A stretch of 64,000 nucleotides of DNA from Natronorubrum texcoconense (lineage in GTDB: Archaea; Halobacteriota; Halobacteria; Halobacteriales; Natrialbaceae): NCBI RefSeq assembly GCF_900100335.1, contig NZ_FNFE01000001.1, forward strand, positions 930,001-994,000, written 5' to 3'. Below the pieces are notes generated by a model that saw only the letters and a list, made by a program, of their open reading frames with translations, searched no databases and was not told the origin of the DNA. The position numbers were made by a program, and so were the translations under genes. Shown in pieces: positions 1,838-28,757 of this stretch. Positions within the stretch are counted from its first letter, which is position 1; the number at the start of each line of letters is the position of its first letter.

Positions 1838-3643
1838 ATGAGCTTCACCGCATCCGGATACCACCACGGTATCACGACGGACACAGTTAGCATCGGAACG
1901 CTGCTCGCGCGCGACCAGGTTTACAAGATGGTCGACAACCAGCGTCCTGTCGCCTGGGGCGCCGAGCAGATGCAAGAAAACTTCGACGACGTCGACGCCC
2001 TCCCGGAAGTCAACCGGGGAGATGACGGCCCGGAAGGACACGAAACCCACTTCCTCGGAGTCATCGAGCTCCAAGTCGATAGTCACTACGAGGCTGGCGA
2101 TGGACCAGTCGTCCAATACGTTGTCGATGGGCAGCAGAGGATGGTCGCGGCGAGTCTGCTCGTCGCCTGCCTGACCGAGAAATACCGTGAACTCGGTGAC
2201 CCAGATGCCGCACGGGAACTGACACGGAAGTACCTTGAGACACAGTCCCGCGATGGCACAGAGACGACCGTGCGCCTGACCCAACTCTATGACGATGAGG
2301 AGGAAGACGAGGAGGCGGCCGACCTCTACGACGAGGAGTTCCAGATGCTTCTCGACGACCCGACAACCCCGAAGGACGCAATCACGCACGACAAGCTCGG
2401 TGACCTCATCCACTGCATCCGGACGGAGATCGACGCTCGAGTGAAGGGTCCAAACGACATCGAGCGGCTGGAAGAGCGGTTCCTTCACCGTCAGGTCGTC
2501 GGCGTGTTCAACTTCAGCGAGAGCTACTCACCGTACCGCCTGTCGGAGGGCTGCAACGGTCGCGGCGTCCACTGGGGACCGGTCGACCACATCAAAAACC
2601 GGCTTATGGAGCTGGCCGAAGAGCCGAGCATCGACAAACCGAACGTCGAACGCTCCTGGCGAGAGGCTCGGCGCAATCTGGACGAGGTGAACGAATCTCG
2701 GGCGCTCCGTTACTGGGTGATGGCATACCCCCATGTACCGGTCGAGGACAAGATCACGAACTCCAAACTGTACGACACAGTGAAGGAGATCATGGACGAG
2801 CGCCTGGACGAGGGTGCGTTAACCCTCGAGGACTACGCTGGTGATCTCGCGACCGGAACCGAGTACTACCGGGACGTCGCACTCGCGAACATCACCCACT
2901 ACAGGGATGACGCGGACAATGCCGAAATCAATCGGCATCTCGAGAACCTAAACAAGATCGGGGCGACGCCGCCCCGTATCCTCGTCGTGCGTGCGCTCTA
3001 CACAGGGCTCCCCGCTGACGAGCTGATCTCGATCCTCGAGATGACCGAAAAAATGTCACTCGCACGTCGAGTCGTCGAGCGGCGTGTCCCGCAAGAAGTT
3101 CGGGCGTACATCACTCTCGCACACAGCGCGTTCGAGCCGGGGGTCGATACTGTGGCCGCTGTCCGCGAGGAACTCGAGGACCTGATGCCCTCGAAGCCGG
3201 AGTTCGAACGCGCGTTCGCGCGCATGGAGTGGAACAAAGGCAAAAAGACCCAGTACGTCCTCTCGACGCTCGAGCACGAGCACTTCCGATCGGGGAGCAG
3301 CAGCCGCTTCGGGGGGCGTACTGAGGGTGATGTCGAACACATCGCGCCGCGCGGAAGCTTCGATACCAAGAAGTACTCCGCCTGGGGCGACTCCCTCAGC
3401 GTTACGCAGGAAGAGTTCGAACTCGATGTCGACCGTATCGGGAATCTCACCCTCCTCGAATCGCGGCTCAACATCGCCGCAAGCAACGATCCCTTCGACC
3501 AGAAGGCACCCCACTACGCCGACAGTCAGTACACGATGGCCAACGAGGTCGCCGACAACTACAACGGCTGGTCCATGAACGATATCAATGACCGGTCAGA
3601 AGAGCTGGCCGAAACTGCAGCCGATATCTGGGTGGACCTGTAG
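1838..3643 (+). CDS. GmrSD-like protein: DUF262 NTPase domain plus DUF1524 HNH nuclease
   Basis: A 601-residue protein. The N-terminal DUF262 domain shows 'NQRPVAW' (about residues 34-40) and the signature 'DGQQR' (97-101), the nucleotide-binding ParB-like motif. The C-terminal DUF1524 domain shows 'VEHIAPR' (His 501, HNH-type metal site) and 'IGNLTLLESRLN...SN..F..K' near 534-555. The family includes the type IV restriction enzyme GmrSD, which cuts modified DNA using nucleotide hydrolysis, and BrxU-like defence proteins. ATG 1838 has an AAAGGA element upstream. The gene converges on the Dpd-like operon, and DpdB, also a ParB-like DGQHR protein, is missing there. A role as nuclease or partner of that system is therefore possible but inferred. 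Confidence 0.85.
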   Translation: MSFTASGYHHGITTDTVSIGTLLARDQVYKMVDNQRPVAWGAEQMQENFDDVDALPEVNRGDDGPEGHETHFLGVIELQVDSHYEAGDGPVVQYVVDGQQRMVAASLLVACLTEKYRELGDPDAARELTRKYLETQSRDGTETTVRLTQLYDDEEEDEEAADLYDEEFQMLLDDPTTPKDAITHDKLGDLIHCIRTEIDARVKGPNDIERLEERFLHRQVVGVFNFSESYSPYRLSEGCNGRGVHWGPVDHIKNRLMELAEEPSIDKPNVERSWREARRNLDEVNESRALRYWVMAYPHVPVEDKITNSKLYDTVKEIMDERLDEGALTLEDYAGDLATGTEYYRDVALANITHYRDDADNAEINRHLENLNKIGATPPRILVVRALYTGLPADELISILEMTEKMSLARRVVERRVPQEVRAYITLAHSAFEPGVDTVAAVREELEDLMPSKPEFERAFARMEWNKGKKTQYVLSTLEHEHFRSGSSSRFGGRTEGDVEHIAPRGSFDTKKYSAWGDSLSVTQEEFELDVDRIGNLTLLESRLNIAASNDPFDQKAPHYADSQYTMANEVADNYNGWSMNDINDRSEELAETAADIWVDL

Positions 3644-3995: not shown

Positions 3996-4685
3996 TTAGG
4001 ATAGTGAAAGCTTGACGTAGCTTTCTAAATCAGATCTACGGAGTTCCTCAATTTGATTATCTTTTAACGATTCAAGATATAGTGGGTCATCCGATAAGAG
4101 ATCGTCGACAATCGGTTCGATCGGTGTTCCCTCATATGGGCCGAAAATGTCGTCTCGAGCCTCCTCGAAAAACCGTCGCATATCCTGCCCGAACTCTGCA
4201 GCGTGCGATTTGCGAGCCTCGAGGCTCGTATCTTCCCCACGGTACACGTGCCCCTTCCAGTCCCAATTATCGAGAAGCTCATCGATAGCCTCGATCTTCG
4301 CCTCACTGACCCGCTCAACGCGGCTATTGAGTCGCTGCATACCGTTTACCATACTGTTCATGCTGATCCGTTCTTCGTGGATCTTATTGCTGACCCGCCG
4401 TTCTTGATCCGCAACCAGCTCCTCTACGGTATTGATGATCGAATTCAGCTCTCCGTACTCATTGTTCTCGAGGTGGTGGCGAGCATCCTGAACCGCCTCT
4501 TTCGCCTCCTCATCGATTTCAATCGATGTTTGGAGAAACTCCTCGGCGAGGATCTGCTGGAGGACAGTCTCCTCCATGGTTTCGGCGATTTCCTCGAGGC
4601 GACTCTCGAGCTTTTTGTGGCGATACTGCTGGTAGATGTCCTCGACCTGTTCTTCGAACGACTTAGGTTCGGGTTCAGTTGACAT
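3996..4685 (-). CDS. Coiled-coil protein, last gene of Dpd-like operon
   Basis: An acidic protein of 229 residues from the ATG at 4685 (a GTG nine bases upstream is also possible). Most of it is predicted helix with heptad-like spacing, especially residues 20-140 ('LESRLEEIAETMEETVLQQILAEE' type repeats), followed by a short globular tail with 'EPIVDDLLSDDPLYLESL'. There are no catalytic motifs. It overlaps the end of the upstream ATPase gene by 11 bases, so it is translationally coupled to it and probably an accessory or structural subunit acting with the ATPase. No family was recognised. Confidence 0.75.
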   Translation of the reverse strand: MSTEPEPKSFEEQVEDIYQQYRHKKLESRLEEIAETMEETVLQQILAEEFLQTSIEIDEEAKEAVQDARHHLENNEYGELNSIINTVEELVADQERRVSNKIHEERISMNSMVNGMQRLNSRVERVSEAKIEAIDELLDNWDWKGHVYRGEDTSLEARKSHAAEFGQDMRRFFEEARDDIFGPYEGTPIEPIVDDLLSDDPLYLESLKDNQIEELRRSDLESYVKLSLS

Positions 4686-7596
4686 AGTGATCACTCACCT
4701 CGATAAACCGGTCACCAAGACGGTCTATTCCTGCACCACCCTCGTTGATCTCGAGTGGGACCTTCTGATACTGATTGACGACTGGCATTGCCGTCAGCTT
4801 CTGACTGATCAGCGCCGCGCGGATTTGTTCCGCACGATCACCATTTCGGAGTTCCGTCGCACGGGTCGCTGCGTCTACGGATTTATCGATGTCTTCCTGT
4901 GAAAACCGACAGAACTTCCCAAGCTCTTCGATGAAATCGGGGTTCACGTCATCATACGTTTCGAGACCCTCATAGAGGTCCGTGATCCTGTCAAGGTCGA
5001 CGCCAGCGAGCTCTGTAGAGACCGTTTCGACGACATCCTCATCGAACTCGCGTTCGCTGATCTCGTCGAGCTCGCGTCGGACATCGTACATCGCGTCGGC
5101 AAAGTCCTTCAGCGACTTTCTCGTATCGAATCGAACTCGACTTTCGATGTTGTTGATGTACCCGCGTCCAAGCATCGTCAGGACGTCGTATGGCTCAGAA
5201 CGCTCCATCCGTTGGCGGACAGCGGGGACGTCGAGGCTCCCGGCCGAGATTGCGAGGAACTCGCTCATCATCCGCTCGATGTCGTCTGCGTACTCCATCG
5301 CGGATTCGATGTGATCGTACTCTTCCGGCGGCAGTGCCGACTTCAACTGTTTCTTGAGCTGAGAGTCCACGGAGAACTCCTCGTCGCTCTCAAACTGGTC
5401 GTTGAGATTTTCTGGTGTGGGCTCCGTCCACGGCGAGTCTAATAGACACAAGTGAGTGTACGACGCTAGAACGAAGTCGGTGAAGTCGTACTTGGCGTGT
5501 TGTTTGTAGAACACGCTGTCGTCCTCGAGGTACGTGTCGATGATTTTCTGGCGCCACTGGTGGGCGTAATCGGTCAGCTGCGTACCGAGCTTCTGTAACG
5601 TCCCCTCAAGGTCAGCGGTGTTTTTCTTTTCGACTCGCCTGACGCCGAACTCGACAAGCGTTCGAAGGTCCGATCTCCGAAACTCGTGTCGATCAAGGAC
5701 AATCTGATCGGTATCCGGGGATTCAGTCCCGTCCGGGTAAACGAACGGGTATTTCTGGCTACTCAGGTTGTATTCTAGTGGTTGTCCTTCATAGAGACGA
5801 TATTCATCCGTCAGCTCTTCGAGCAAGTCACGGAGAGCGGTCTTAATGTACCGGTCAGTCTCCGGGTGATCGGTCGGACTGTCGAGCCAAGAGTCAATCG
5901 TCGCCTTCTGATCGTCGACCGTCTGCTCAAGAACCGACTTCTCTTCGCCCTGAGTCTCTTTCTTTTTGGTCGTTCCAGTTTTCGTCGTAGTCGTGACTTC
6001 ACCACTGGCTCCGGATTCTGCGACGAGGATCTGCTGAGATTCCTGATCGATTGTTATCTGCTCTGGCAACTTATCCGGGTCTTCGGGGATGAGGCCGAAC
6101 GCATCGGCGAATCGCTTGTCGATGACGATTACTGGCCTCTCGCCGCTCCGGTCGACGGTGCCGTACCACTTCGCGAAGTCGGCGAACTCCTCTGCATCTT
6201 CGTAGACTTCGTCCGCAGCGGAGATTTTGTTCGTCAGACTCCGGAGGACGCTCGCACTCGAGGGGACATCGACGAATCCCTCGTGGTACTCCTCGAGCAC
6301 CTCGAAGACGGTCATAATGAACTCTCGAGGCGATTGCTGGCTCTCATCCAGACCAGTGTACAGCCGGTGCAAGAACGTCTGATTGAACGGGAACAGGTCG
6401 CGGAACGACTCGTCACAGAAGTCGCACCGGGCGCAGATTGAACCGGAGGGAGCTTCTTTAAGCGTCAACCCACCGGAGTCGTCCTCCTCGTACCTGACGC
6501 TGTCGTCGAAAGACTTGATGTAGCCGAGATACGGCCGAACAAAGTCGACGGCGATGTCTTCGTCCAGGAAGAGCACGCTGTTCGAGTTACGCTCGTTCGT
6601 CTGGAAGAACTCGAAGCGATCTTCTGCAGTCCGCGTGTGCAAGACGCTAGTCGAGTCGCGAGTACCGGCGACGATGAAGTCCCAGTTGTCGCTCCCTTTG
6701 TCTCGCTCCATGTAATTTCGGAGCTTCTCGGCTTCCATCGCCGTAATCGAGAAGTCCTCGAAGATGATGACCGGTCGCGTATTGGTGAACTGACTGCCAA
6801 CGTGCTCGAGGACGTCGTCGAGTGACGCGGTGTTGTATCGGTCACGGACCTCCCGCCACAGTTCTTGATTGAACGCATCGACTGCTTCCTCCACACCGAC
6901 TGACTGCTGGAAGATTTGTAGCTCGTCTCGTTGCTTGTATTCGCCCTCAGTGATGAACTTGATCTCGCGGGCGTACTCACCCTTTTCAACGAGCAGCTGT
7001 AACTTTCCTCGAACGAAGTCGCGGATATTGTCTTCCTGATCACCCGTGGGGCTGACCTCGTAACCGCGGCTTCGAAGGTTGAGAATAGCACCCGAGGTTG
7101 CGTTGTTCGCGACCGCCTGAGGGATGTTTTCGATATCATCACGAAGCTGTTTGAACTCCGACGCCCCAGGGAGCTCCTCGCCGAAGTGTTCCTCGTAAAA
7201 CTGGGGAATCCGTTCGGACAGGATTGACATCAGGTCGTCGTCCTTGTCGATGTGGAGCAGCGGGCGGCCATCGTCACGCAGGCGGTGAGAAAGGTATGCA
7301 CAGAGTTCGGACTTCCCTGTCCCAACTTCGCCTTCAATGACGACTGCGAAGTTACCGACGCGGTCAGCTGAGAACAGTCGGTAGACACGTTCCTCACCCC
7401 ATTTTTCTGCGTTAGATGCATTCGTTCCCCGGAACACCTCCATACGACGATGGGTAAAGTCGAACAATCGACGGTCCTCGGATCGAACCGCCGCGACTTT
7501 ACTGAACAACCGCCGGAGGGTCTCTTCATCGATCTGGTCGAAATGCGGACATCGAGCGTCCGCCACGGCCGGAGTCTGGAGTTCGTTCGTTGTCAT
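4675..7596 (-). CDS. dpdH: Large P-loop ATPase, DpdH-like
   Basis: A 973-residue protein with a Walker A motif 'GEVGTGKS' (89-96) and a Walker B-like 'VIIFED' near 277-283. A Cys cluster 'CARCDFC' near residue 390 may bind zinc. An acidic, Gln/Thr-rich linker near 530-560 separates the ATPase from a long helical C-terminal half. Size, single P-loop ATPase domain and position beside a helicase and a TGT-like gene match DpdH of the bacterial dpd restriction modules. The name is given from context and architecture, not from an alignment. The start overlaps the preceding gene's stop (ATGA, 7593-7596). Large AAA-type ATPases of BREX (BrxC/PglY) are an alternative relative. Confidence 0.7.
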   Translation of the reverse strand: MTTNELQTPAVADARCPHFDQIDEETLRRLFSKVAAVRSEDRRLFDFTHRRMEVFRGTNASNAEKWGEERVYRLFSADRVGNFAVVIEGEVGTGKSELCAYLSHRLRDDGRPLLHIDKDDDLMSILSERIPQFYEEHFGEELPGASEFKQLRDDIENIPQAVANNATSGAILNLRSRGYEVSPTGDQEDNIRDFVRGKLQLLVEKGEYAREIKFITEGEYKQRDELQIFQQSVGVEEAVDAFNQELWREVRDRYNTASLDDVLEHVGSQFTNTRPVIIFEDFSITAMEAEKLRNYMERDKGSDNWDFIVAGTRDSTSVLHTRTAEDRFEFFQTNERNSNSVLFLDEDIAVDFVRPYLGYIKSFDDSVRYEEDDSGGLTLKEAPSGSICARCDFCDESFRDLFPFNQTFLHRLYTGLDESQQSPREFIMTVFEVLEEYHEGFVDVPSSASVLRSLTNKISAADEVYEDAEEFADFAKWYGTVDRSGERPVIVIDKRFADAFGLIPEDPDKLPEQITIDQESQQILVAESGASGEVTTTTKTGTTKKKETQGEEKSVLEQTVDDQKATIDSWLDSPTDHPETDRYIKTALRDLLEELTDEYRLYEGQPLEYNLSSQKYPFVYPDGTESPDTDQIVLDRHEFRRSDLRTLVEFGVRRVEKKNTADLEGTLQKLGTQLTDYAHQWRQKIIDTYLEDDSVFYKQHAKYDFTDFVLASYTHLCLLDSPWTEPTPENLNDQFESDEEFSVDSQLKKQLKSALPPEEYDHIESAMEYADDIERMMSEFLAISAGSLDVPAVRQRMERSEPYDVLTMLGRGYINNIESRVRFDTRKSLKDFADAMYDVRRELDEISEREFDEDVVETVSTELAGVDLDRITDLYEGLETYDDVNPDFIEELGKFCRFSQEDIDKSVDAATRATELRNGDRAEQIRAALISQKLTAMPVVNQYQKVPLEINEGGAGIDRLGDRFIEVSDHYVN

Positions 7597-8429
7597 CCAA
7601 CCACCTCGAGTGTGTTCGCTTCTCGGTCGATATCACTGTGGCTCGGCACACGATCAAGACTGATTGCACCTGCGTCACCGCGTTCGACGATTCGTATCGC
7701 ACCATTGCGAACAAGGGTATAGAGCACCCGGGCGAACGGTGCAGGAACGGTACCGTCGGCTGTCAACTCGATCAACAGGAGATTCTGGTTGAGCCAATCG
7801 AAATAGTCCTCGATCGAAATTCGATCGTCCTCACCAAGATCTTCGACGGCAAATCGGATCGAGTGTTCAATCATGTCTAAGTCGGGATAGACTGTGTGTG
7901 ATCGGCCGCTCATTTTGTAGACGAGTCCGAGGGAGTCGACGAGCCGCGTCCAGTTGACGAACTTTGGCTCGTTGAGGACGATCGGGCCCTGACTCGAGCG
8001 AGGCCGATACCCGCGGTCACTCTGTTGCCAGTCGTTAATCTCGTTGAAGAGGACCTCATCGTTACTCTCGAAGTACTGGATATCGTGTTGGAGCAGATAC
8101 TGGTAGTTCAAAAGGACGACTGACTGTTTGCCCCAGTCACCGGGTTCCGCTCGTGTCGCCAGCTGGTTGAGCGCGGTCATGCGGAAGTCGAGTCCGCGAT
8201 CACCGGTCTCCCAGGTATACTCGATCGTATAGTAGTCCGGTTCTTCGCGACCGATCATACCGAGCTGCTGGAGGCCATTGAGGCCTTGCTTGAGCAGATC
8301 GGCGGGTAGGTCGGTGTCGTCACGTAGCTCCTCAGACGTCGTATGACCCCTGCGGATCGATTCGAACACGGTCCGTAGTGGACCGGGCGTCTGTACCGTG
8401 TTGAGGATGTAGCCTTGATTTTTACTCAT
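7593..8429 (-). CDS. dpdG: Winged-helix protein, DpdG-like
   Basis: A 278-residue protein. Residues about 15-75 look like a winged helix ('PGPLRTVFESI...TTSEELRDDTDLPADLLKQGLNGLQQLGMI'). A second possible winged-helix segment near 205-255 includes 'PFARVLYTLVRNGAIRIVERG'. There are no catalytic residues. It is the gene immediately before the DpdH-like ATPase and overlaps it by four bases; in bacterial dpd clusters a protein of this size, DpdG, precedes DpdH. A DNA-binding specificity or adaptor role is inferred. The symbol rests on gene order and size and should be confirmed by a profile search. Confidence 0.6.
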   Translation of the reverse strand: MSKNQGYILNTVQTPGPLRTVFESIRRGHTTSEELRDDTDLPADLLKQGLNGLQQLGMIGREEPDYYTIEYTWETGDRGLDFRMTALNQLATRAEPGDWGKQSVVLLNYQYLLQHDIQYFESNDEVLFNEINDWQQSDRGYRPRSSQGPIVLNEPKFVNWTRLVDSLGLVYKMSGRSHTVYPDLDMIEHSIRFAVEDLGEDDRISIEDYFDWLNQNLLLIELTADGTVPAPFARVLYTLVRNGAIRIVERGDAGAISLDRVPSHSDIDREANTLEVVG

Positions 8430-8443
8430 CGTTGGTCAGTTCG

Positions 8444-9352
8444 TTAGTTGATGTCAGAGAGCCAATCGTAATAACGTGCATCGATCCGGCTCTCTTCGGG
8501 TGCTAATCGTCGTCGGGCGGTTCGTGCGTCGCGAAGTTTTGGGGATCGCTTGGCATAGGAGGGGTCGAACGTACTCCCATCGTCAGAGACCGTACGGTTC
8601 AACGTTTTGGCCACGTCGATCGCAGTTTTCCGATCCCACTCGATACGTCGACGAAGCCAGTTGCCTAGGGCTGGTACTTGATCATCCGAATCTAGCGGAA
8701 CACTCCCGTATTCGTTCGGACGAGCAAACACGTCACAGAACACCCAGTACAGCGGGAGATATGGTGCCTCGGGAAGCCGATCGAATAACTCGGTTGTCTT
8801 CGAGAGGTCTTCACCGGTCACGAGTGAGTAGAGTGACGCGTTATCTTGGACGAACAGGTTCTGCGTGTCAGTTAGCGGCAGCTCCCAGCCTTCCTGATCG
8901 TAATAGTTGCTGAACGCCTCGTGGATGCGATCTGCGGGGCCAACGCGGGTCGCAAACTGCTCCTGTGAAAGCGGTCGCTGTCCACCGTCGGGTGTGAACC
9001 GTTCGTTCTCGGTGAGGACGACAAGCGTGCCTTCCCCTGTCGAGAACTCCGTGACCAATGGTTGAATCGAGTACTGCGTCTGGAATTCGTAATACTCGTT
9101 CGTCAGAACACAGAGGTCAGACCCCTCTTCGAGTTCGATACCCCCGAGAACGTGGTAATTGTAGCCGGGGAACTGGTACTGTTGGCCACCGTCGAGTTGT
9201 CGCCACGACGTGGGGAACGTACACTGATCGACTCCCAGATACGAGATTGCTGGCAACGTCCGTAGCAGCCACCATCTGGAGTCGGGGACGTCATCGTAGA
9301 TAACCGCAACACCCGGTTGTGTCAACCGGTGTCGGATCATCTCGAGGCTCAT
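8444..9352 (-). CDS. Unrecognised 302-residue protein in Dpd-like operon
   Basis: The protein is acidic, globular and lacks a signal peptide or membrane segments. The beginning reads 'VAVIYDDVPDSRWWLLRTLPAISYLGVDQ' in pieces, and the middle has 'GTLVVLTENERF', a strand pattern that could belong to an alpha/beta domain. The C-terminal 60 residues are basic and may touch nucleic acid. No HxK motif of phospholipase D enzymes is present, so it is not an obvious DpdK. It lies between the helicase and the winged-helix gene, with 14 bases before the next start, so it is surely co-transcribed. It may occupy the DpdI place, but this cannot be shown here. Confidence 0.7.
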   Translation of the reverse strand: MSLEMIRHRLTQPGVAVIYDDVPDSRWWLLRTLPAISYLGVDQCTFPTSWRQLDGGQQYQFPGYNYHVLGGIELEEGSDLCVLTNEYYEFQTQYSIQPLVTEFSTGEGTLVVLTENERFTPDGGQRPLSQEQFATRVGPADRIHEAFSNYYDQEGWELPLTDTQNLFVQDNASLYSLVTGEDLSKTTELFDRLPEAPYLPLYWVFCDVFARPNEYGSVPLDSDDQVPALGNWLRRRIEWDRKTAIDVAKTLNRTVSDDGSTFDPSYAKRSPKLRDARTARRRLAPEESRIDARYYDWLSDIN

Positions 9353-9380
9353 CTATATCACCCCGCTTTGAGCGCTCACG

Positions 9381-12300
9381 TCAGTCACCACCCTCGTTTC
9401 CAACGATGCCAGCGAGTGTTCGCCGGTCCAGGAGGTCGTTCTCGAGATAGTAGGCAGGCGTCCGGGAGAGTAAAAGACACTCATCACAGTAGCTGTGGCA
9501 CCGCTTGCAGCTTGCGATATCTATGACGTGCTCTTCGAGCCTGTCTACCTCTTCGAACACTTGCCAGGTGATTCCGTTACCTCCCTGTCGACCGTCGACG
9601 ATGAAGATATCTAACGTTTCGTCGGTCGTACTCGTCTTCACGTTGAAGTCGGATCGGTCACAGTTGGCGACGATTGCGACCGCCTTCTCGAGCGATTGCT
9701 CGAGGCTAACCAGCGCCTGTGGCCAGGACTTCCCGTCGTGGACCACACCATCGTATCGGTCCTGCACGCTCGCGAGATCAACACGGAAGTGAAGCCCCTG
9801 TGTATGGTACTGCTGGCCGACGGGACGGTACGTTTCTTTCTCGACATCGTCTAACTGATCGAGCCACGAGTCTCCAGTCGAACTTGACTCGTTCTCATCA
9901 CGCTCGACAAGAGCCTCTGACCGCAGGACCTTCTTTTTCGGGCTACTCGAGTGACGGCGCTCGAACGCGTAGACGAAGTTGGTCAGTTCGAACTGCCCGT
10001 AGCTGACGGTTGCTGGCAGGTCGAACAGCGTGATTTCTTCCGACTCATGGAAGTCTTCCGTGGCGCGACGAACGTGCGTCGTCATGAGCCCACGAGTGCT
10101 GTAGCCGCGTTGGCCACCAACTGCCGACTTGCACTCGACACTGCTTACGCCATGGATGTCCGTTATCTCGAGTGACTCATCGCAGTGAGGACAGAACTCC
10201 TGATCCGTCTCATAGCTCTCGAACGGACGGTCACAGTCTTCATTTGTACACACGGCAAGTTCTACGACCGGCGAGGAAGTCGCTCGAACGTCGTCTACGA
10301 TGTAATCCGTTCCATGGAGTGTGAGTACCGCACCCAGATCGTTCTCCTCACCGGGGTACATGTCGTATAGGCGCCCGGACGACTCGAAGCTGATGTGGTC
10401 CCTGCGGCCGCTGAATTTCACCGGGAACGTCTGACCGAAGTTGCGGTAGTTCGCCAGGTACCCCAGCCGTGAGAGCCACTGATCGAGTCGGCTATTCGTC
10501 TCCGTGAGATTCTTGTTCGCATCAGCCCCGCTCGACATCGACGTAAGCCGTGAGAACGTTTGCTCTGTTCGCGTCGACAGCGAGAGCGGCCCCTCCTCGA
10601 AGAAGACCTCCTCATAGACCTCGACACCACGGTAACCGAACACCGACTCGACATGTTCATGAAGCGGGTCGTCCATCTCCTCGCTGATGAAATTACGGAG
10701 GATTGAGAGGTGCTTCTCGACCGCTGAAACATAGCTGGACAGGTTCTCTCGCTGAGGCTCCGAAAGGGTGAAAACGCGCTCGAAGACGTTTGATTCGTGT
10801 GGGTTCCGGGCCAGATAGGCAAACACCTCCGTTACGACATGGCCGGCGAGTAGTTCGTCGAATTCGTACGGGTCCGGCACTCGGATTGGTTCGAAATCTG
10901 CGAGATATTGCTCGAGGTTTCCGTAGTAGTGTCCGTCGACCGGATGAGTCCCTCGAGCGACGGTCATCACGAGCGACGAACTACCACGGGTACGGCCCGT
11001 TCGCCCCGACCGCTGCACGTAGTTCGTCAACGTCGGCGGGATCCCCACCTGGGCTACCGTGTCGAGAGTCCCGATGTCGACCCCAAGTTCCATCGTCGGC
11101 GTCGCACTGACGACATTGACGTCCGGGTCGTCTTTTCGGAACCCTTCCTCAATCGCCCCACGGAGCGTATGGGGGATGTCCCCCTTGTGTATGCCGACAG
11201 TTATGAACTCAGGCTCTTTGCCGTCGTGTAGCGGCCGCGTGACGTCGTGGGCCCAGTGGTCGATTGCGTACGGCCAACCAGAGTCCACCCTTGCGTAGCC
11301 GGGATCGGCCCTGAGCGTATCACCTTCACGGGTGAATCGGTCATACGTCTCGAGTGTGTCACCACAGTTCTGGCATTCATGGATCCCATCTCCCTTATCA
11401 GGGATTGGATAGGACGAGTAACAAGAAGAACAGAACGCAGCGCTCGGAAGTAACACGATCGTCGACTCATCACGCCGAGTCGTTCTGATGAAGACCCCGC
11501 TATCCGCTGGTTCGTCCTGAAGAGAGGCTTCGTTAACTGTCTCCCGTGCGTCTTCGAGATACGCGTGTACCTCATCGCGTGCAGGCTCGTCAATTCCAGC
11601 CATCTGGACGGCGTTTTGAACTTCTTCCCAAGACTGCAGCGAAATAATCCCCTCCGCGAGGAACGCTTCGAGGATATCGTCGAGCACTTCGTCAATCTGC
11701 TTTCTCGAGATTTTCATTCGACTGTCGAGACGGTCAGTCATTTTCTCTCTCGTCAGGCCATCGAAAGCGACCTTGTTGTACCGGAACGCATTGCTTTTGC
11801 CCAGCACGAACATCGTATACAGTTCGTGAGCAACGACGAGCGCTTCGGGATCTTCGAAGGACGTCACCGGCTCAGCGGTTATTATCGCACTCTCGATGAG
11901 GTTCTCACACCGGCTCAACATCGCATGTGCCTCAATATCGTCGAGAAGCGTCCGAAGGAAGTTGTAGGCCGTCCCGTCTTCGTCGATTTCGTTCTGGATA
12001 AGCGGCTGCCAGTACTCCTCGCGTAGACGGTCCGACACGGTACGGAACAGCTCGTAGTTGTCCATCTCGCCGCCAGCCTCGATGAGTTCCTGGACGTAGA
12101 GCGTCTCTGCCATCAGCCCGTACTCGGTTTCGATAATCTGGTCACCGACGCTTTCAGCAGCACTTCGAGAATCAGAGAAGACGAGGGTCTTCTTCGACGG
12201 AGTCACCCGGCAGATTTCGGTCAGCATGTACGACAGCAGCGAAGATGTCGGCACGCCAACGTCGGTGGTTTTGATCCAGCCCTCACAACCCGGACATTCG

Positions 12301-14111
12301 TCAGCTGGCCCATCAGCGCTGATCGGCGCGAACACCGTTTCATCGCCGTCGTCGTCCCACTCAATATACGGTTCGTGACAACGTCGGCAAAACTGCATCT
12401 CCGGAAGCGCACTGTTACACTCCGGGCACTTGCTGTCACGGGTCACGAGGTCACACTCTTGACACCAGTAGACCTTGTGCGGCGGCTTCAAGAAGACGTG
12501 ATACTTTTCGGTGATGATCCCAGCGAGCTGACCGAACGCCATTACGGTCTCGAGGATTCCCTCCGGATCTTCGAGGCCGAGTTCGGTTGCTTCGGCGATC
12601 AAGTCGTCGTAGGCTTTAAATTCGACTTCACCCGTCGTTCCCGAATCAAACCACGAGGTGAACGCAGGGACTTCGGGGACGGCACTGATGACGAACTCGT
12701 ACCAGCCACTGAAGAACCCGCTATCCTCAATGACGGCTTCGACAACGGCGTTTCGTCCCTCTACCGAGGCAAGGATTTCGAGTTCGTCCTTCTCTTCGTG
12801 CTCGAGTAACAGTTTGTCCAGAGCGTCGACGATGGGCTCGATCATCCACTCCTCAGCCCGGGGTCCGAGCTGAAGGTCATCTGTCGCGATGAGCCTGATG
12901 GAACGAAGTGTCGCGAGTGCGCCCTCGAGTTCGAACTGTGTGATCTGTGTTTCAGCAGGCCCGTCTACCTGTGTCAGCGCCAGTGTGTGAATGATTTCCT
13001 CGAGTGTGGCTGGTTCGAACCGGCCGAAATTTGGCGTATCCTGAACCGGGAACTCACGTGCAGTGAAAGAAATGTCGTTGATTTCTCCTTTCGGAGTTCC
13101 CGTTAGATCGCTAGCCAATGAACGTGGGTCCTCGACCGTCGCCGAAACCATCGTAACCTGTGGGTCCCGATCGGCATAGAACGCTTTGAGTCGTCGGGAG
13201 AGAAGCGAGACTGCCGATCCTTGGATTCCGCTCCAGACGTGGGCCTCGTCAAAGACGATGTGCTTGACTGGCTGGTCGTTTGGCTCGGTGCCAAGGATTT
13301 CCCGGGTCTCCGGGTTGTTCGAGACAAACATATAATCAAGCGCCTCTGGAACCGTTAGTAGAATGTCAACACCGCGGCGGATTCCGTCACGGGTGACCCG
13401 TACCCATGAGTATGTGATGTCGTCGGTCCCAACGGACGTCTCATCGAATATACGGAGCTTTTCCGAGTCATCGCGTGGGTCGACGAGACCACGAACGTAA
13501 GATCCTGCTTCAACCTCATAGTCTCGAGTTCCTACACGCGTTGGCGTGTCAGAGTCCCAGATACCAATGGTTATTCGATCTTCAGGATCTCGGTATCGGT
13601 TAATTTGATCGAGATACGTCAGAAACCGATTGAGCTGGTCGACGCCGAGGGTCTTCATCGGATAGACGACGATCGATTTTAGCCCCTCTTCGTCCGTCGA
13701 CAGACAATCGTTGAGAATCGGCAAAAAGAACGCCTCCGTCTTTCCAGAGGCCGTCGGAACCGCTAGGATGCTATCTCGGTTGGTCGTTTCGATAGCTTCG
13801 ATCGTCTCAGCCTGATGCTGATATAGTGAGCCTTTCGTATCCCCTGCGAATAGCTCCTCTACAATTGCGTTTGTGATCGCTTCATCGTAATCCAGATCCG
13901 CAAGGAATTCTGCAGCGGATTGATCGTGGAACTGCGGTGCGTCGACAAACTCAACGAAGGGGCCTTTCTGTTCGATTAAATCATCCGCTACGAACGATGT
14001 GGCGTTACTGACGCCGTCGACTTCGTTGAGTTTGGTCATCGCACGGTTCCACCAGGTAATTTCTGCAGCACGGGCCTTTGCGCTTTCAAGTGTGTCGTGT
14101 GGTGTGTGCAT
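9381..14111 (-). CDS. dpdJ: Giant SF2 helicase with zinc clusters and DUF1998-type end, DpdJ-like
   Basis: A 1576-residue DEAD/DEAH helicase. Motif I 'VPTASGKT' is near residue 118-125, 'DEAH' near 285-288, and helicase-C motifs near 1000-1040 include 'QRSGRTGR'. Cys-rich clusters that probably bind zinc lie near 547-605 (CQEC...CPEC, CRRC, CPGC), 893-915 (CSSC...CQNC) and 1290-1312 (C..DC...CPHC). The final 60 residues read 'DGRQGGNG', then 'CKRCHSYCDEC', as in the DUF1998 ends of MrfA- and DrmB-type helicases. In dpd clusters this architecture is DpdJ, needed for restriction. DISARM helicases are the main alternative, but the neighbouring TGT-like gene points to Dpd. Confidence 0.75.
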   Translation of the reverse strand: MHTPHDTLESAKARAAEITWWNRAMTKLNEVDGVSNATSFVADDLIEQKGPFVEFVDAPQFHDQSAAEFLADLDYDEAITNAIVEELFAGDTKGSLYQHQAETIEAIETTNRDSILAVPTASGKTEAFFLPILNDCLSTDEEGLKSIVVYPMKTLGVDQLNRFLTYLDQINRYRDPEDRITIGIWDSDTPTRVGTRDYEVEAGSYVRGLVDPRDDSEKLRIFDETSVGTDDITYSWVRVTRDGIRRGVDILLTVPEALDYMFVSNNPETREILGTEPNDQPVKHIVFDEAHVWSGIQGSAVSLLSRRLKAFYADRDPQVTMVSATVEDPRSLASDLTGTPKGEINDISFTAREFPVQDTPNFGRFEPATLEEIIHTLALTQVDGPAETQITQFELEGALATLRSIRLIATDDLQLGPRAEEWMIEPIVDALDKLLLEHEEKDELEILASVEGRNAVVEAVIEDSGFFSGWYEFVISAVPEVPAFTSWFDSGTTGEVEFKAYDDLIAEATELGLEDPEGILETVMAFGQLAGIITEKYHVFLKPPHKVYWCQECDLVTRDSKCPECNSALPEMQFCRRCHEPYIEWDDDGDETVFAPISADGPADECPGCEGWIKTTDVGVPTSSLLSYMLTEICRVTPSKKTLVFSDSRSAAESVGDQIIETEYGLMAETLYVQELIEAGGEMDNYELFRTVSDRLREEYWQPLIQNEIDEDGTAYNFLRTLLDDIEAHAMLSRCENLIESAIITAEPVTSFEDPEALVVAHELYTMFVLGKSNAFRYNKVAFDGLTREKMTDRLDSRMKISRKQIDEVLDDILEAFLAEGIISLQSWEEVQNAVQMAGIDEPARDEVHAYLEDARETVNEASLQDEPADSGVFIRTTRRDESTIVLLPSAAFCSSCYSSYPIPDKGDGIHECQNCGDTLETYDRFTREGDTLRADPGYARVDSGWPYAIDHWAHDVTRPLHDGKEPEFITVGIHKGDIPHTLRGAIEEGFRKDDPDVNVVSATPTMELGVDIGTLDTVAQVGIPPTLTNYVQRSGRTGRTRGSSSLVMTVARGTHPVDGHYYGNLEQYLADFEPIRVPDPYEFDELLAGHVVTEVFAYLARNPHESNVFERVFTLSEPQRENLSSYVSAVEKHLSILRNFISEEMDDPLHEHVESVFGYRGVEVYEEVFFEEGPLSLSTRTEQTFSRLTSMSSGADANKNLTETNSRLDQWLSRLGYLANYRNFGQTFPVKFSGRRDHISFESSGRLYDMYPGEENDLGAVLTLHGTDYIVDDVRATSSPVVELAVCTNEDCDRPFESYETDQEFCPHCDESLEITDIHGVSSVECKSAVGGQRGYSTRGLMTTHVRRATEDFHESEEITLFDLPATVSYGQFELTNFVYAFERRHSSSPKKKVLRSEALVERDENESSSTGDSWLDQLDDVEKETYRPVGQQYHTQGLHFRVDLASVQDRYDGVVHDGKSWPQALVSLEQSLEKAVAIVANCDRSDFNVKTSTTDETLDIFIVDGRQGGNGITWQVFEEVDRLEEHVIDIASCKRCHSYCDECLLLSRTPAYYLENDLLDRRTLAGIVGNEGGD

Positions 14112-14153
14112 CGTGTAAAGTATGGTCAGTCAGTTTGTCATTGTGTTTCAGTT

Positions 14154-14161
14154 CTTATAAG
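14154..14161 (-). promoter_or_regulatory. Promoter of helicase operon (TATA box)
   Basis: On the minus strand a BRE-like CGAAAC is followed after ATC by TTATAAG, about 43 bases upstream of the helicase ATG (14111). This gives a short leader of roughly 15-20 nucleotides, so the helicase and the following genes can be transcribed apart from the transglycosylase gene. Confidence 0.55.
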
Positions 14162-14227
14162 ATGTTTCGACTGGATATCACCGCATGTTATTCATGTCTA
14201 TATCTGTTGTACACCTCAACAGAGTCA

Positions 14228-14254
14228 CATTCCATGTAGTATAAATCTGGAATG
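14228..14254. repeat. Inverted repeat near helicase promoter
   Basis: CATTCCA (14228-14234) and TGGAATG (14248-14254) form perfect seven-base arms around a short AT-rich centre containing TATAAAT. It could be a regulator site or a hairpin in the transcript from dpdA. No bound protein is known. Confidence 0.4.
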
Positions 14255-14280
14255 AAAAATTGATAAGCACCACAGTCTCG

Positions 14281-14311
14281 AGCGTGGATGCATCCGAGGT
14301 GCGTCCACGCT
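14281..14311 (-). terminator. Strong hairpin after dpdA stop
   Basis: AGCGTGGATGCA (14281-14292) pairs with TGCGTCCACGCT (14300-14311) over 12 positions with one G-U wobble and a seven-base loop. It sits about 40 bases past the transglycosylase stop codon. A T-run follows only about 25 bases further (14255-14260 region), so it may be a terminator or an mRNA-stabilising or processing hairpin separating dpdA from the helicase operon. Confidence 0.45.
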
Positions 14312-14349
14312 TTGGTAAAGATTGCTGAATAATCTCTATATCCAGAATA

Positions 14350-16338
14350 TTAGTCTAAGTAGTCTATCAGTTCTTGGATGTTCGTATTCCGGAAATGTTC
14401 AGTGAGCTGGAATGATTTTGGGTTCTGCGGGAAGACAATCTCATCACTTGCACCCACACCAGACTCGTCGAGAGCTGTTTCGATAACACCCCGGTATTGT
14501 GCGCTAGCGACATATGCTACGACCTCATCATAGTGATCCTCATACGTTTCCAGATATGTTTGTAACCGTTTCGTGACCAGGTCAATCTGCTCGGTATCTT
14601 CGCTTGTGAGCATATACTCGTACCCGAGGACAGGGTCCTCCCTCTCTTTCTCCTCTGGTACAGGACCGTACATACCCGACAAAGTTACTTTATGAATATG
14701 GTCACGTTTGTCCTCGAGTTTCGTCTCCAGAACTGAGTGAGTTCGGGACTCCGAGTAGGGCTTTTTTTGACTACATGGAACGAGCAACAGCACTCGTTTG
14801 TCAGCGGGTGGCTCATACCGTTGGGTGAGGATATTAAAACTACTTGGATTATACTTTAGCGAGATGCTTCGTGTCTCAGTGCTCTCGTCGACACCACCAC
14901 CCCATTTTGAGAGTTTTGTCTGATCACTGGTCAAATCCGGACCTGCAACCAAATCGTACGCTTCTTTCTTTTCGAGATCGCGACAAAGTTTCTTGTTCCG
15001 AACCTGTGCTTGTTTCAGTCCTTTTTTAATATCGGGGTTATTCCGAGCGAAGTCGATCACATATTCGAGAAGTGTGCCCTCGCGAATCCGATCGCGAACT
15101 CGATGGAGTTCAGAATTGTAGACCTCGAAGTTATGCCTCGCAAGCGCTGCATAGTAATCGCTCTTGATCGGCTCACCGTTGCTCTTGCGCTCTTGACGCT
15201 GATCGTAGCTCAAGTCCATGTTGAGCTCATCAACGAGAGTCTGGTAGTCGACATCACTCTCTGAACCACACAGCGTACAGTGTTCGAGCGTGCAAGGGAA
15301 GTCGCCGTCTTCTAAGTACGGTTCAAGCTCGTTGACGTGAATTGTCTCCCACGTATCTGGGATGGTGTATTTCGCATAGGTTGCTGTCTGGACGTGCGTT
15401 GAACAGTCAAAGGTATCGACACCGAGCAACGCTAAGAGGGATACCTGCTTTCCGCCGACACCGAAAACATGGAGCCCGATCTCATCTGCTCGAGAGCTCG
15501 GGATCGCATCGGTTGCTCCTTGTACAATATCGATCAGAACATCGATGCTACTCCGGAGGGGAACGAGCGACCCGATGGCAAATCCTTCAAACGACTGTTC
15601 TACGTTTGCTTCTTCAATTCGTTCGAGGAACGTTCCGACGTACCAGTTGACCGTTTCGTAATCGTGCCCGTGAAGCGCTACGTAAACACCCGGTTCGTTA
15701 CCATCGCTCTTTTGTTGTTTCAGCCGCTCAGCTGCATTTTCGTTTGTCGGGAATCCATCGCTAAGGGTGTCGGGGTCTTCAATAATCTGGAGACATTCAA
15801 CTGCGCTGTCGATACTACGCTCCATTCGTTCTACCTTCTCTTCCTCGTTTAATTTCGGAGGAATGGGATAATCAAGAGTTGCGATAATGTCCGATCCAAA
15901 ATCAATCTGAAGTCCAAGAATACTCTTTGGGTTTGTATATAGCCCCCACTCATTTTCGGCTCCACCTTCGACTGGTGCTTGACCGAAAGTATTCGAGTTC
16001 ATCAGCTTGAATCCACCCGAATCTATGAATACGGGTGCATCAAGACTGTCGAAGCGCTCGTGGAAGGTTTGCGATCGCCAAAAGTCGTTGAGATTCGCTG
16101 GGGAGACACCATAGTCCGTGAAGCTCATCGCCTGAAACATGATCCCGTCCAAATGGGAACCATCAATGAGATTATCTCGTATGCGCCGCCAAATTCCTCC
16201 AGACTTCTCTGTTGTACCTCCAATAAAGTTGATAACAGGAAAAAGCGCGGGTGTAGAAACTGGACCGTGTGGAACGCAGAGCTCGCCGAGGCGACCATAT
16301 CCATCGTCACCTTTCTCCTCAACTCGAAACTCCGCCAT
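14350..16338 (-). CDS. dpdA: DpdA-like DNA 7-deazaguanine transglycosylase fused to an ArcS-type domain
   Basis: A 662-residue protein. Residues 1-410 have the TGT fold with intact catalytic parts: 'FIDSGGF' (Asp 106), 'TLDYP' (Asp 156), 'FAIGSLVPLR' (253-262), 'DTFDCS' with the likely nucleophile Asp 311, and a zinc site made of Cys 349, Cys 354, Cys 357 and His 402. TGT enzymes swap guanine for a 7-deazaguanine; the DpdA branch acts on DNA. Residues 515-662 match the archaeosine synthase core (DUF5591) and show the exact PC-X3-KPY-X2-S-X2-H signature ('PCSQKKPYSESRTH', 521-534). The RNA-binding PUA domain of tRNA enzymes is not evident. It is inferred to insert preQ0 or a derivative into DNA and then modify it. 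An atypical tRNA enzyme is the alternative. Confidence 0.8.
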   Translation of the reverse strand: MAEFRVEEKGDDGYGRLGELCVPHGPVSTPALFPVINFIGGTTEKSGGIWRRIRDNLIDGSHLDGIMFQAMSFTDYGVSPANLNDFWRSQTFHERFDSLDAPVFIDSGGFKLMNSNTFGQAPVEGGAENEWGLYTNPKSILGLQIDFGSDIIATLDYPIPPKLNEEEKVERMERSIDSAVECLQIIEDPDTLSDGFPTNENAAERLKQQKSDGNEPGVYVALHGHDYETVNWYVGTFLERIEEANVEQSFEGFAIGSLVPLRSSIDVLIDIVQGATDAIPSSRADEIGLHVFGVGGKQVSLLALLGVDTFDCSTHVQTATYAKYTIPDTWETIHVNELEPYLEDGDFPCTLEHCTLCGSESDVDYQTLVDELNMDLSYDQRQERKSNGEPIKSDYYAALARHNFEVYNSELHRVRDRIREGTLLEYVIDFARNNPDIKKGLKQAQVRNKKLCRDLEKKEAYDLVAGPDLTSDQTKLSKWGGGVDESTETRSISLKYNPSSFNILTQRYEPPADKRVLLLVPCSQKKPYSESRTHSVLETKLEDKRDHIHKVTLSGMYGPVPEEKEREDPVLGYEYMLTSEDTEQIDLVTKRLQTYLETYEDHYDEVVAYVASAQYRGVIETALDESGVGASDEIVFPQNPKSFQLTEHFRNTNIQELIDYLD

Positions 16339-18875: not shown

Positions 18876-18985
18876 CCGACAGCACCGAGCTTCCCACCAG
18901 CACCGAACGGAACAGTTGTACAGAGATCACTGCCGAAGTCCAAGCCACAATCCACGACGGGACAGGAGGTGAGCGAGATGAGTGA
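18872..18985 (+). CDS. Short coupled ORF of 37 residues
   Basis: This starts on the ATGA shared with the previous gene's stop and ends inside the next gene's start region. The product begins 'MTDSTELPTSTERN' and ends 'GERDE'; it is acidic and Ser/Thr-rich. The tight overlap on both sides suggests real coupled translation, but the sequence has no known relatives that can be recognised. Confidence 0.4.
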   Translation: MTDSTELPTSTERNSCTEITAEVQATIHDGTGGERDE

Positions 18986-19607
18986 GGATCAGTCGCCAAC
19001 TGACGCCGAGCGAGAGTTCACTCGAGATATCGAAGGGCGCGGCAAAGGCGACGGCCGCTGGCTCGAGTTCCAACTCTCGCGCGCACTCAAACAGTGGGGC
19101 TACGTAACGGACATGCGTGAGACAGCCTACGGTCTCGAGATCGACGTCGTCGCCAAGCGGAAAGAACCACGGAACAGACCAACTGACTACATCGTCGCCG
19201 AATGCAAAGACTGGGAGAATCGCTCGATCACCCCAAACGTCATCTATCGACTCTGCATGCTCGCATTCAGCTGTCGAGCAATGCCAGTGTTGTGCCACAC
19301 GACGACGCTGACACCGAAGGCCCGAGAAATCGCCCAGAAATGGGAAGTTCGAGTCCTCACGCTCGAGGATTTACATCGTGGTGCACTGCCAGCACCGAAC
19401 GTGAGTGCACCGATCGAGGAACTGTGCATGCATCGAAGACAATGCACTCCTCGCGAGGGACGGGGGACACTGCCAGTGATGCTCACCTACGAGCGCGAGC
19501 GGCACTTCTCCTACGTTCCTGGCTTCAAAGCCAAGGGGCGACTCTGTGAGTATCAGCCGATCGAGAATGCTGACGAATCCCACTCGTCCGAAGACAGTGG
19601 TGAGTAG
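18978..19607 (+). CDS. PD-(D/E)XK nuclease-like protein (Mrr/RecB type)
   Basis: A 209-residue protein. The motif order Glu 30, 'EIDVVA' with Asp 56, and 'AECK' with Glu 75 and Lys 77 fits a PD-(D/E)XK endonuclease core of the kind found in Mrr-like restriction enzymes and resolvase-type nucleases. ATG 18978 is chosen because GGAGGT (18965-18970) stands seven bases before it; a GTG at 18969 would lie on top of that ribosome-binding site. The C-terminal half carries several Cys residues and 'YERERHFSYVPGF'. It is the last of five overlapping genes, so it likely acts with the unknown proteins before it. Confidence 0.75.
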   Translation: MSEDQSPTDAEREFTRDIEGRGKGDGRWLEFQLSRALKQWGYVTDMRETAYGLEIDVVAKRKEPRNRPTDYIVAECKDWENRSITPNVIYRLCMLAFSCRAMPVLCHTTTLTPKAREIAQKWEVRVLTLEDLHRGALPAPNVSAPIEELCMHRRQCTPREGRGTLPVMLTYERERHFSYVPGFKAKGRLCEYQPIENADESHSSEDSGE

Positions 19608-27412: not shown

Positions 27413-28516
27413 TTACCCCATGCGGTTCAAAGCATCTTGCCTATCCTCGACAGGTGCCTGATCGTATTTCATCGTCGTCTCGGGGCTCTTGTGACGCAAC
27501 TGTGCCTGTGCTGCTGCCAGATCCTCCTCTCGAGTCATGTACGTGCCTGTCGAGTGGCGAATCGTGTACCAGCTCATCTGCCGGTCTTCGTAGTCGATGC
27601 CGGCGAGGTCACACAGGTCGTGAAGCAGCCGCCGAAGCGTCGACGATCCGTAGGTGTTCCCCTCTCGAGTCAACCAGAGCTCGTCACGACCGTCGTACAA
27701 CTCGTGCGTCGCTCGTTGATCTAACCAGCGGTCGAGCATCTTGATCGTTCGGTCGCTCAGACTGACACGCCAGTGTCCTTCGTTCTTCGAGCTCTCTTCT
27801 TTCGGAATACGAAAGATTCCGTTCTCGAGGTCGACCCACGAGGTCACTGCACGACCGACTTCGATCGGCCGGAGGCCGGCGTCAAGGCTGGCACCAACGA
27901 GGCTCGGAATCTTCCAGCCGTTGGCACGGTCCCAGTCCGCTTTCGTGACGTCTGTCTTTGGCTTCTCGAATCGCTGTGCCAGATACGCTTTCATACGATC
28001 GCGTTCGTCTGGCGTGACGTTGTTGTAGTGTGGAACGCTACCGTGCTCGAGCGAAGCTTCCCGAACGAGCTTCCGTTCGTCTCGAGTGAGAAAGTCCCTC
28101 GGTACGGTCGTCTTGCTGCCGGAGCTGAACCGTATCTCGGGGTCCCATTCGTCGCCACCGCGCTCGTGCGCGCGCCATTTGAACAGCATCATCACGGCCT
28201 TCTGGCAGCAGTCTCGGTGGGCATCGCTGTAGTCGTCGTATGCGAGTTCTCGCATCCACGCATCGGCGTGGTCGTGAGTGATGCTGGTGGTGTAGTGGTC
28301 TTGCTCGTCCCACACGTACCGGTAGAAATGATCCATCCGGTAGATACGTGAGCCAACGGTGGTCTCGGCGTACCCCTCTGCCTTCTCGGGATCCTTGCCG
28401 AACGAGAGGAGCCATCGGAGACAGTCCTCACGTTCACTGCGATAGTCTACCAGCTGGCGCTGCCCGAGTCGCTGTTCGGTCGGCCCGGGAACGAGGGCGA
28501 AGTCGCTCAGATCCAT
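27413..28516 (-). CDS. Tyrosine integrase next to tRNA-Glu
   Basis: A 367-residue protein. The core-binding domain covers roughly residues 20-120 ('ETTVGSRIYRMDHFYRYVW'). The catalytic residues are Arg in 'AGLRPIEV', the box 'WYTIRHS' (Tyr in place of His, Arg kept), His in 'LRHKSPETTMKY' and the Tyr nucleophile in the same motif. It resembles the integrase at 25111 along its length. It is transcribed away from the tRNA-Glu gene, whose 3' end lies about 170 bases upstream of the start codon. This makes it the likely recombinase that joined the island to the chromosome at that tRNA. Confidence 0.88.
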   Translation of the reverse strand: MDLSDFALVPGPTEQRLGQRQLVDYRSEREDCLRWLLSFGKDPEKAEGYAETTVGSRIYRMDHFYRYVWDEQDHYTTSITHDHADAWMRELAYDDYSDAHRDCCQKAVMMLFKWRAHERGGDEWDPEIRFSSGSKTTVPRDFLTRDERKLVREASLEHGSVPHYNNVTPDERDRMKAYLAQRFEKPKTDVTKADWDRANGWKIPSLVGASLDAGLRPIEVGRAVTSWVDLENGIFRIPKEESSKNEGHWRVSLSDRTIKMLDRWLDQRATHELYDGRDELWLTREGNTYGSSTLRRLLHDLCDLAGIDYEDRQMSWYTIRHSTGTYMTREEDLAAAQAQLRHKSPETTMKYDQAPVEDRQDALNRMG

Positions 28517-28682
28517 CTCTGGACCCTCGTATCGAGCAATGCTAATCGGATTGCCTGTCCAAATTCGCTAATCGCAAGACGGCGCCGGGATGGCCCGACT
28601 ATGTGAATCGAATTGACTTCGAGTCCCATGGTTACTTGAGGTTAGCACGGGCTCAAAATCACGGGACGGCGTCGGGGAGAAG

Positions 28683-28757
28683 TGCTCCGTCAGGGATTTG
28701 AACCCTAGTCATTGCCGTGAGAGGGCAATATGATTGGCCGGACTACACCAACGGAGC
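28683..28757 (-). tRNA. tRNA-Glu (CTC)
   Basis: Read on the minus strand, the acceptor strands GCTCCGT and ACGGAGC pair perfectly. The anticodon stem TTGCC/GGCAA encloses the loop CTCTCAC, with anticodon CTC for GAG (glutamate). The T-loop TTCAAAT is closed by AGGG/CCCT. The discriminator base is A and no CCA is encoded. The 3' end points toward the integrase at 27413-28516, which marks this gene as the probable attachment site of the island. Confidence 0.92.

Follow-up and report, generated by a model that had tools for sequence, protein, structure and literature searches.

A transglycosylase-ArcS fusion on an integrated island of Natronorubrum texcoconense: probable half of a DNA modification-restriction system resembling BRIGADE Type I

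In the 4.6-Mb genome of Natronorubrum texcoconense a gene that joins a transglycosylase (TGT) domain to an ArcS core lies together with genes for a helicase, a P-loop ATPase and three further proteins, which raises the question whether enzymes resembling those of tRNA archaeosine synthesis can be part of a system that acts on DNA. The window analyzed here is the whole stretch of 64,000 nucleotides at contig positions 930001-994000, for which an initial annotation, made from the sequence alone, had proposed a Dpd-like system on a mobile island. Our analysis suggests, with a probability of roughly 0.78, that the locus represents one half of a modification-restriction system for DNA, similar to BRIGADE Type I and located on an integrated island. 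The reading as DNA restriction is supported by the identities of DpdG, DpdH, DpdJ and DpdK, which were obtained from profile comparison.

Gene content and borders of the island

All six minus-strand open reading frames of the initial annotation were found, with the same coordinates and lengths. In detail, the window contains (window positions):

14350-16338, minus strand: TGT-ArcS fusion, 662 aa (TGT PF01702, E 8e-25; DUF5591, E 1e-21)
9381-14111, minus strand: YprA helicase, ARMADA/Druantia-like, 1576 aa (DEAD, Helicase_C and a C-terminal MZB, a DUF1998-type zinc domain, E 4e-9)
8444-9352, minus strand: 302-aa protein, second gene of the five-gene module, conserved in position
7593-8429, minus strand: DpdG homologue, winged helix, 278 aa (hhalign to bacterial DpdG)
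4675-7596, minus strand: DpdH homologue, P-loop ATPase, 973 aa (NCBIfam DpdH, E 1.9e-5, and hhalign)
3996-4694, minus strand: coiled-coil protein, 232 aa, in the place of bacterial DpdI (after DpdH)
1838-3643, plus strand: GmrSD-type nuclease (DUF262/DUF1524; PF07510, PF03235; PADLOC Orf5/HEC-06), convergent neighbour

The fusion gene is followed by a gap of 238 nt and the subsequent gaps are +28, +14, -4 and -20 nt, which agrees with the earlier description of all genes but the first as tightly coupled; the domains then claimed (TGT and DUF5591, helicase and MZB, P-loop ATPase) were likewise recovered by domain search. The same order of the five-gene block is kept in many other haloarchaeal genomes and is therefore far beyond chance. 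The GmrSD-type neighbour is probably an accessory, its membership being unsure.

For the assignment of these proteins, alignments of the haloarchaeal homologues were compared by hhalign with small alignments built from Dpd proteins annotated in the bacteria Enterobacter, Agrobacterium, Nostoc, Deinococcus and Paenibacillus. The winged-helix protein matched DpdG (P 96.7, E 3.7e-10, 228 columns) and the 973-aa ATPase, which is also P-loop/nSTAND-like by domain search, matched DpdH (P 98.7, E 2.8e-16). As an internal control, the queries other than the helicases were compared with the remaining Dpd families and gave no signal of similar strength. The 1576-aa helicase scored 154.9 bits with PADLOC DruE3 versus 95.8 bits with DpdJ, Druantia DruE being the top model, and matched the helicases of BRIGADE Type II-like loci with P 100. 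No Pfam, PADLOC or NCBIfam match was obtained for the 302-aa protein, whose only profile match was a weak one (P 52.6, E 1e-4) to the gene that opens the Type II-like module. The coiled-coil protein was considered as a DpdI and rejected, as the hhalign comparison to DpdI was not significant and only its position matches.

The island has a length of about 54 kb and is bounded by a pair of exact 47-bp repeats:

window 28677-28723, no strand: candidate att site, one copy of the 47-bp exact repeat, overlapping the 3' end of tRNA-Glu
window 27413-28516, minus strand: tyrosine integrase of the island (PF00589, E 1e-15), adjoining tRNA-Glu
contig 904280-904326, outside the window: other copy of the 47-bp repeat, at the left end of the island

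The GC content changes from about 0.51 in the island to about 0.65 beyond the tRNA. Together with the DpdG and DpdH matches, the integrase and the repeat at tRNA-Glu bear out the proposed mobile island with a Dpd-like system. A clean empty site was not seen in the nearest relative (G634), where the site is variable, lacks these TGTs and has the same two flanks separated by about 162 kb instead of joined. At window positions 18969-19607 the same island also contains a weak Mrr-type restriction endonuclease domain (PF04471).

The start of the window (contig 930001) falls inside the island, by which the system is split in two. To the left of it the island continues with genes for a DUF6884 protein, a second TGT, a GHKL ATPase, a PLD protein and a DpdJ-type helicase:

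contig 914578-915039: DUF6884 protein (DpdC-type), first of three overlapping genes
contig 915039-916277: second TGT, 412 aa (TGT412), in one operon with DUF6884 and the GHKL ATPase
contig 916277-917842: GHKL ATPase, overlapping the TGT412 gene
contig 918368-922456 (L006:368-4456): DpdJ-type helicase, 1362 aa, the second YprA helicase
left of the window: PLD-type protein, 150 aa, DpdK-type, adjoining the DpdJ-type helicase
left of the window, same island: a 156-aa protein, a PbeA-like helicase and two HNH-repeat proteins

In the host genome the two halves are at least 16 kb apart and do not form a single operon. The 1362-aa helicase scored higher with DpdJ (145.6 bits) than with all other models and aligned to DpdJ over 522 columns (P 100, E 1e-41). 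The 150-aa protein matched DpdK (P 99.1, E 1e-18), and its counterparts in two other loci (L111, L113) are annotated as PLD. DUF6884, the domain given for DpdC (PMC11888242), was compared with the upstream neighbour of Enterobacter dpdA (P 69) and with the corresponding domain of a Deinococcus protein in which DUF6884 is joined to a TGT (P 91).

The profile searches against the Dpd families that the initial annotation had proposed thus returned homologues of DpdG, DpdH, DpdJ and DpdK. Its list of missing components (DpdB, C, D, E, F and K) holds in part: no match to PF14072 (DndB/DGQHR family), and hence no DpdB, was found genome-wide and no homologue of DpdD or DpdF was recognised among the proteins scanned, but DpdC-type and DpdK-type genes lie at contig 914578-922456. 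The description of the system as reduced is partly an artefact of where the window stops, since the island continues beyond it with DpdC-, DpdJ- and DpdK-type genes and a second TGT.

The stretch from the left repeat to the DUF6884 operon contains, at L005:5924-11519, hydantoinase/caprolactamase-like genes and one resembling methylisocitrate lyase; they may have come as cargo with the island or with an earlier element.

The two transglycosylases

In the fusion protein the TGT domain occupies residues 1-450 and the ArcS core (DUF5591) residues 504-645, approximately. The catalytic aspartate pair, Asp106 and Asp311, is invariant among the aligned members, and so are the catalytic residues of both domains in 29 aligned proteins; taking fusion and TGT412 together, the two TGT aspartates are present in all aligned members and the zinc ligands in nearly all. 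The C-terminal part matched ArcS (P 98.3, E 1e-14) with an invariant PCSxxKPYxxS motif, and no PUA or other tRNA-binding domain was found in the fusion by domain search. Its closest named relative is from Natrinema salsiterrestre S1CR25-10 (91% identity).

The best family scores of both TGTs were to archaeal tRNA TGT or ArcS. The fusion scored 117.5 bits with ArcS (NF040592, cut-off 440) and 101.5 bits with arcTGT (TIGR00432, cut-off 350), and TGT412 scored 21 bits with the NCBIfam DpdA model (cut-off 200). The predicted structures (an AlphaFold model for the fusion) are TGT folds and their PDB fold matches are tRNA TGTs. In the trees, fusion and TGT412 form separate well-supported clades, both close to the small TGT found at Type II-like loci and apart from DpdA, arcTGT, ArcS and E. 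coli TGT. The initial annotation had treated the TGT as the counterpart of DpdA and had named a clustering with tRNA TGT/ArcS as evidence against its proposal. The enzyme clusters with neither, and its assignment as a DpdA was given up, since the trees separate the two clades by a 100/100 branch, although a grouping with DpdA is not formally rejected by the AU test (p 0.14); because of the latter, "not a DpdA orthologue" is the best reading of these sequences rather than proof. A grouping of the fusion with ArcS was rejected (p-AU 0.021), whereas for a clade with arcTGT and ArcS the value of p-AU 0.079 falls short of a strong rejection.

The host possesses its own arcTGT (630 bits; L007:6695-8203), ArcS (844 bits; L007:10432-12189), QueC and RaSEA (TIGR01210), all of them away from the island, and the island enzymes should therefore be dispensable for tRNA archaeosine. 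The eukaryotic proteins QTRT1 and QTRT2 form a TGT heterodimer and by analogy a heterodimer of fusion and TGT412 is possible; it would not be essential because loci with one TGT exist. Relatives of either TGT were absent from the viral contigs, and the phage records gave no match for TGT412. Our search of the literature on TGT-ArcS fusions, and on DUF6884 together with a TGT, yielded nothing further.

Loci with two TGTs were also observed in bacteria, namely in Paenibacillus (pART37, L110) and on a plasmid of Picosynechococcus PCC 73109 (L199), where a large DpdA of 689-691 aa is paired with a 307-aa TGT. The large DpdA of Paenibacillus has an N-terminal DUF6884 domain and the 307-aa TGT of Picosynechococcus is flanked by two DEAD helicases. 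In addition, DUF6884 is fused N-terminally to a TGT on a Deinococcus plasmid (L115:27206-29176) and is found at the C-terminus of a 964-aa TGT in Haloferax (L117:8364-11258).

Distribution and relation to known systems

Co-occurrence was analyzed across 392 genomes of Halobacteriales, of which 35 contain the fusion and 39 contain TGT412, 34 having both (hypergeometric P ~2e-42, with shared ancestry ignored), and in 28 of these 34 the two genes lie within 6 kb. A DpdH-like gene occurs in 25 of the 392 genomes, every one of which has an island-type TGT, i.e. the fusion in 23 and Type II-like TGTs in the other two. Among 295 genomes of the phylum the full-length fusion is restricted to Halobacteriales, the bacterial search having covered plasmid records only; the sole match outside this order (G480) is weak and covers profile positions 393-645 only.

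TGT412 is present without the fusion in five genomes (L205-L209), each of which encodes a second DUF6884 protein together with an 829-aa GmrSD protein; in the stretch examined, this second DUF6884 gene was absent from all 35 fusion loci. Two TGTs are therefore not always needed, because in these five genomes the cassette has one TGT only. In other genomes, too, genes for GmrSD proteins are found next to the modification cassette, and in four genomes the DUF6884-TGT412-GHKL cassette lies beside PglZ-, HerA- and AAA-type genes. At L057 and the loci of G022, G161 and G292 its neighbours are a PglZ-type gene, an AAA gene, a winged-helix gene and a HerA-like ATPase, an arrangement similar to BREX-Related Capture (BRC, PMC12839542). 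That some haloarchaeal copies of cassette and fusion adjoin PglZ- or HerA-type genes is a likeness to BRC resting on family matches, whereas the island described here has neither PglZ nor HerA.

The initial annotation could not place the class in the literature. It corresponds to BRIGADE, a system named in a 2025 preprint (Bell et al., PMC12458937), according to which it is found only in halophilic archaea and its Type I combines an ARMADA-like with a Dpd-branch YprA helicase, a predicted deazaguanine cluster and a PLD protein. On the island, the scores of the 1576-aa protein point to a YprA helicase of the ARMADA/Druantia branch with DUF1998, the 1362-aa protein is the second, Dpd-branch helicase, the two TGTs, the ArcS core and DUF6884 constitute a predicted 7-deazaguanine cluster, and the 150-aa DpdK-type protein is the nearby nuclease for which Type I has either PLD or PD-(D/E)xK; the confinement of the full-length fusion to Halobacteriales agrees with the reported host range. 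The main text of the preprint is silent on the transglycosylases, the ArcS fusion and the GHKL ATPase. The system class is thus already known as an uncharacterised prediction, to which, judged by the main text of the preprint, the details of the TGTs and the swapping of modules are added here.

The BRIGADE Type II-like loci of Salinigranum (L112) and Haloferax (L117) resemble the island in having DpdG/DpdH-type genes, helicases, PLD and two TGTs, but their two helicases are of one type, they possess a large DpdA-like TGT with a DCGA motif and have their own or partly their own preQ0 genes.

Proposed function and alternative explanations

Most likely, the system labels DNA as self by introducing dPreQ0, which it then turns into dADG or dG+. 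In the modification half, TGT412 and/or the fusion would replace guanine in the host DNA by preQ0 from the host's own synthesis, and the ArcS core and/or DUF6884 would convert the nitrile to the amide or amidine (dADG or dG+); RaSEA of the host, which normally acts last in tRNA archaeosine, may complete an ArcS-type reaction. In the restriction half, the ARMADA-like and DpdJ-like YprA helicases, DpdG, DpdH and the coiled-coil protein would inspect and translocate DNA, and unmarked DNA would be cut by the PLD nuclease, possibly with HNH or GmrSD neighbours. The GHKL ATPase may take the place of DpdB. Against this reading stand the missing DpdB, the position of the TGTs outside DpdA in the trees, the distance between the two halves and the loci with a single TGT, and the best family scores to tRNA enzymes leave room for an RNA substrate.

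The TGTs could instead modify RNA, either tRNA or that of an invader or virus, and merely adjoin an unrelated helicase/ATPase defence module. The fold matches, the scores with TIGR00432 and NF040592 rather than DpdA and the weak rejection of a clade with arcTGT and ArcS all fit such a role. The TGT fold and the ArcS core with its PCSxxKPY motif are shared by the fusion with the tRNA enzymes arcTGT and ArcS, from which it differs in that a single chain carries both, the TGT site is intact and the gene lies on a mobile defence island. However, a PUA domain is lacking and the host is already equipped with arcTGT and ArcS; the top PDB matches are uninformative if DpdA structures are few among those compared, and the linkage to DpdG, DpdH, DpdJ and PLD, families known from DNA restriction, is near absolute from the side of DpdH. 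We therefore regard an RNA substrate as unlikely. If the fusion were a housekeeping ArcS that had been duplicated, had retained or reacquired a TGT domain and was drifting with no role in defence, this would explain the ArcS-like C-terminal domain and the ArcS-like domain order, but the scores below cut-off, the separation of its TGT domain from ArcS, the invariant catalytic residues and the TGT412 operon in 34 of the 35 fusion genomes make this the least credible explanation, and the fusion was not retained as a housekeeping ArcS.

A canonical cluster of the bacterial type that moved into archaea would account for the homologues of DpdG, DpdH, DpdJ and DpdK and the DpdC-type DUF6884. It is already disfavoured by gene content, as DpdB and a recognised DpdD or DpdF are missing, an ARMADA-like helicase and the coiled-coil protein are added, and there are two TGTs instead of one, both outside DpdA in the trees and one with an ArcS core; even with the tolerance of the AU test for a DpdA grouping we consider such a transfer very improbable.

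Beyond the preferred reading of the locus as half of a BRIGADE Type I-like system, a wider proposal can be put forward tentatively, which we hold to be somewhat less probable than its opposite. DUF6884, TGT412 and GHKL, usually with the TGT-ArcS fusion, might form a portable archaeal self-mark cassette that needs neither DpdA nor DpdB to mark chromosomal DNA with an archaeosine-type base and has been joined to at least three restriction modules (Dpd/ARMADA-like, PglZ/HerA-like and GmrSD), with the second DUF6884 replacing the fusion in the five fusion-less loci.

If the main reading is true, 7-deazaguanine restriction-modification would exist on archaeal chromosomes with enzymes other than DpdA, and the chemistry of tRNA archaeosine (ArcS and perhaps RaSEA) would have been recruited for the marking of DNA. 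Self/non-self discrimination of the Dpd type would then be directly testable in culturable haloarchaea. Such a system in the hosts would also provide one reason why tailed viruses of haloarchaea encode a deazaguanine pathway of their own (PMC8651126).
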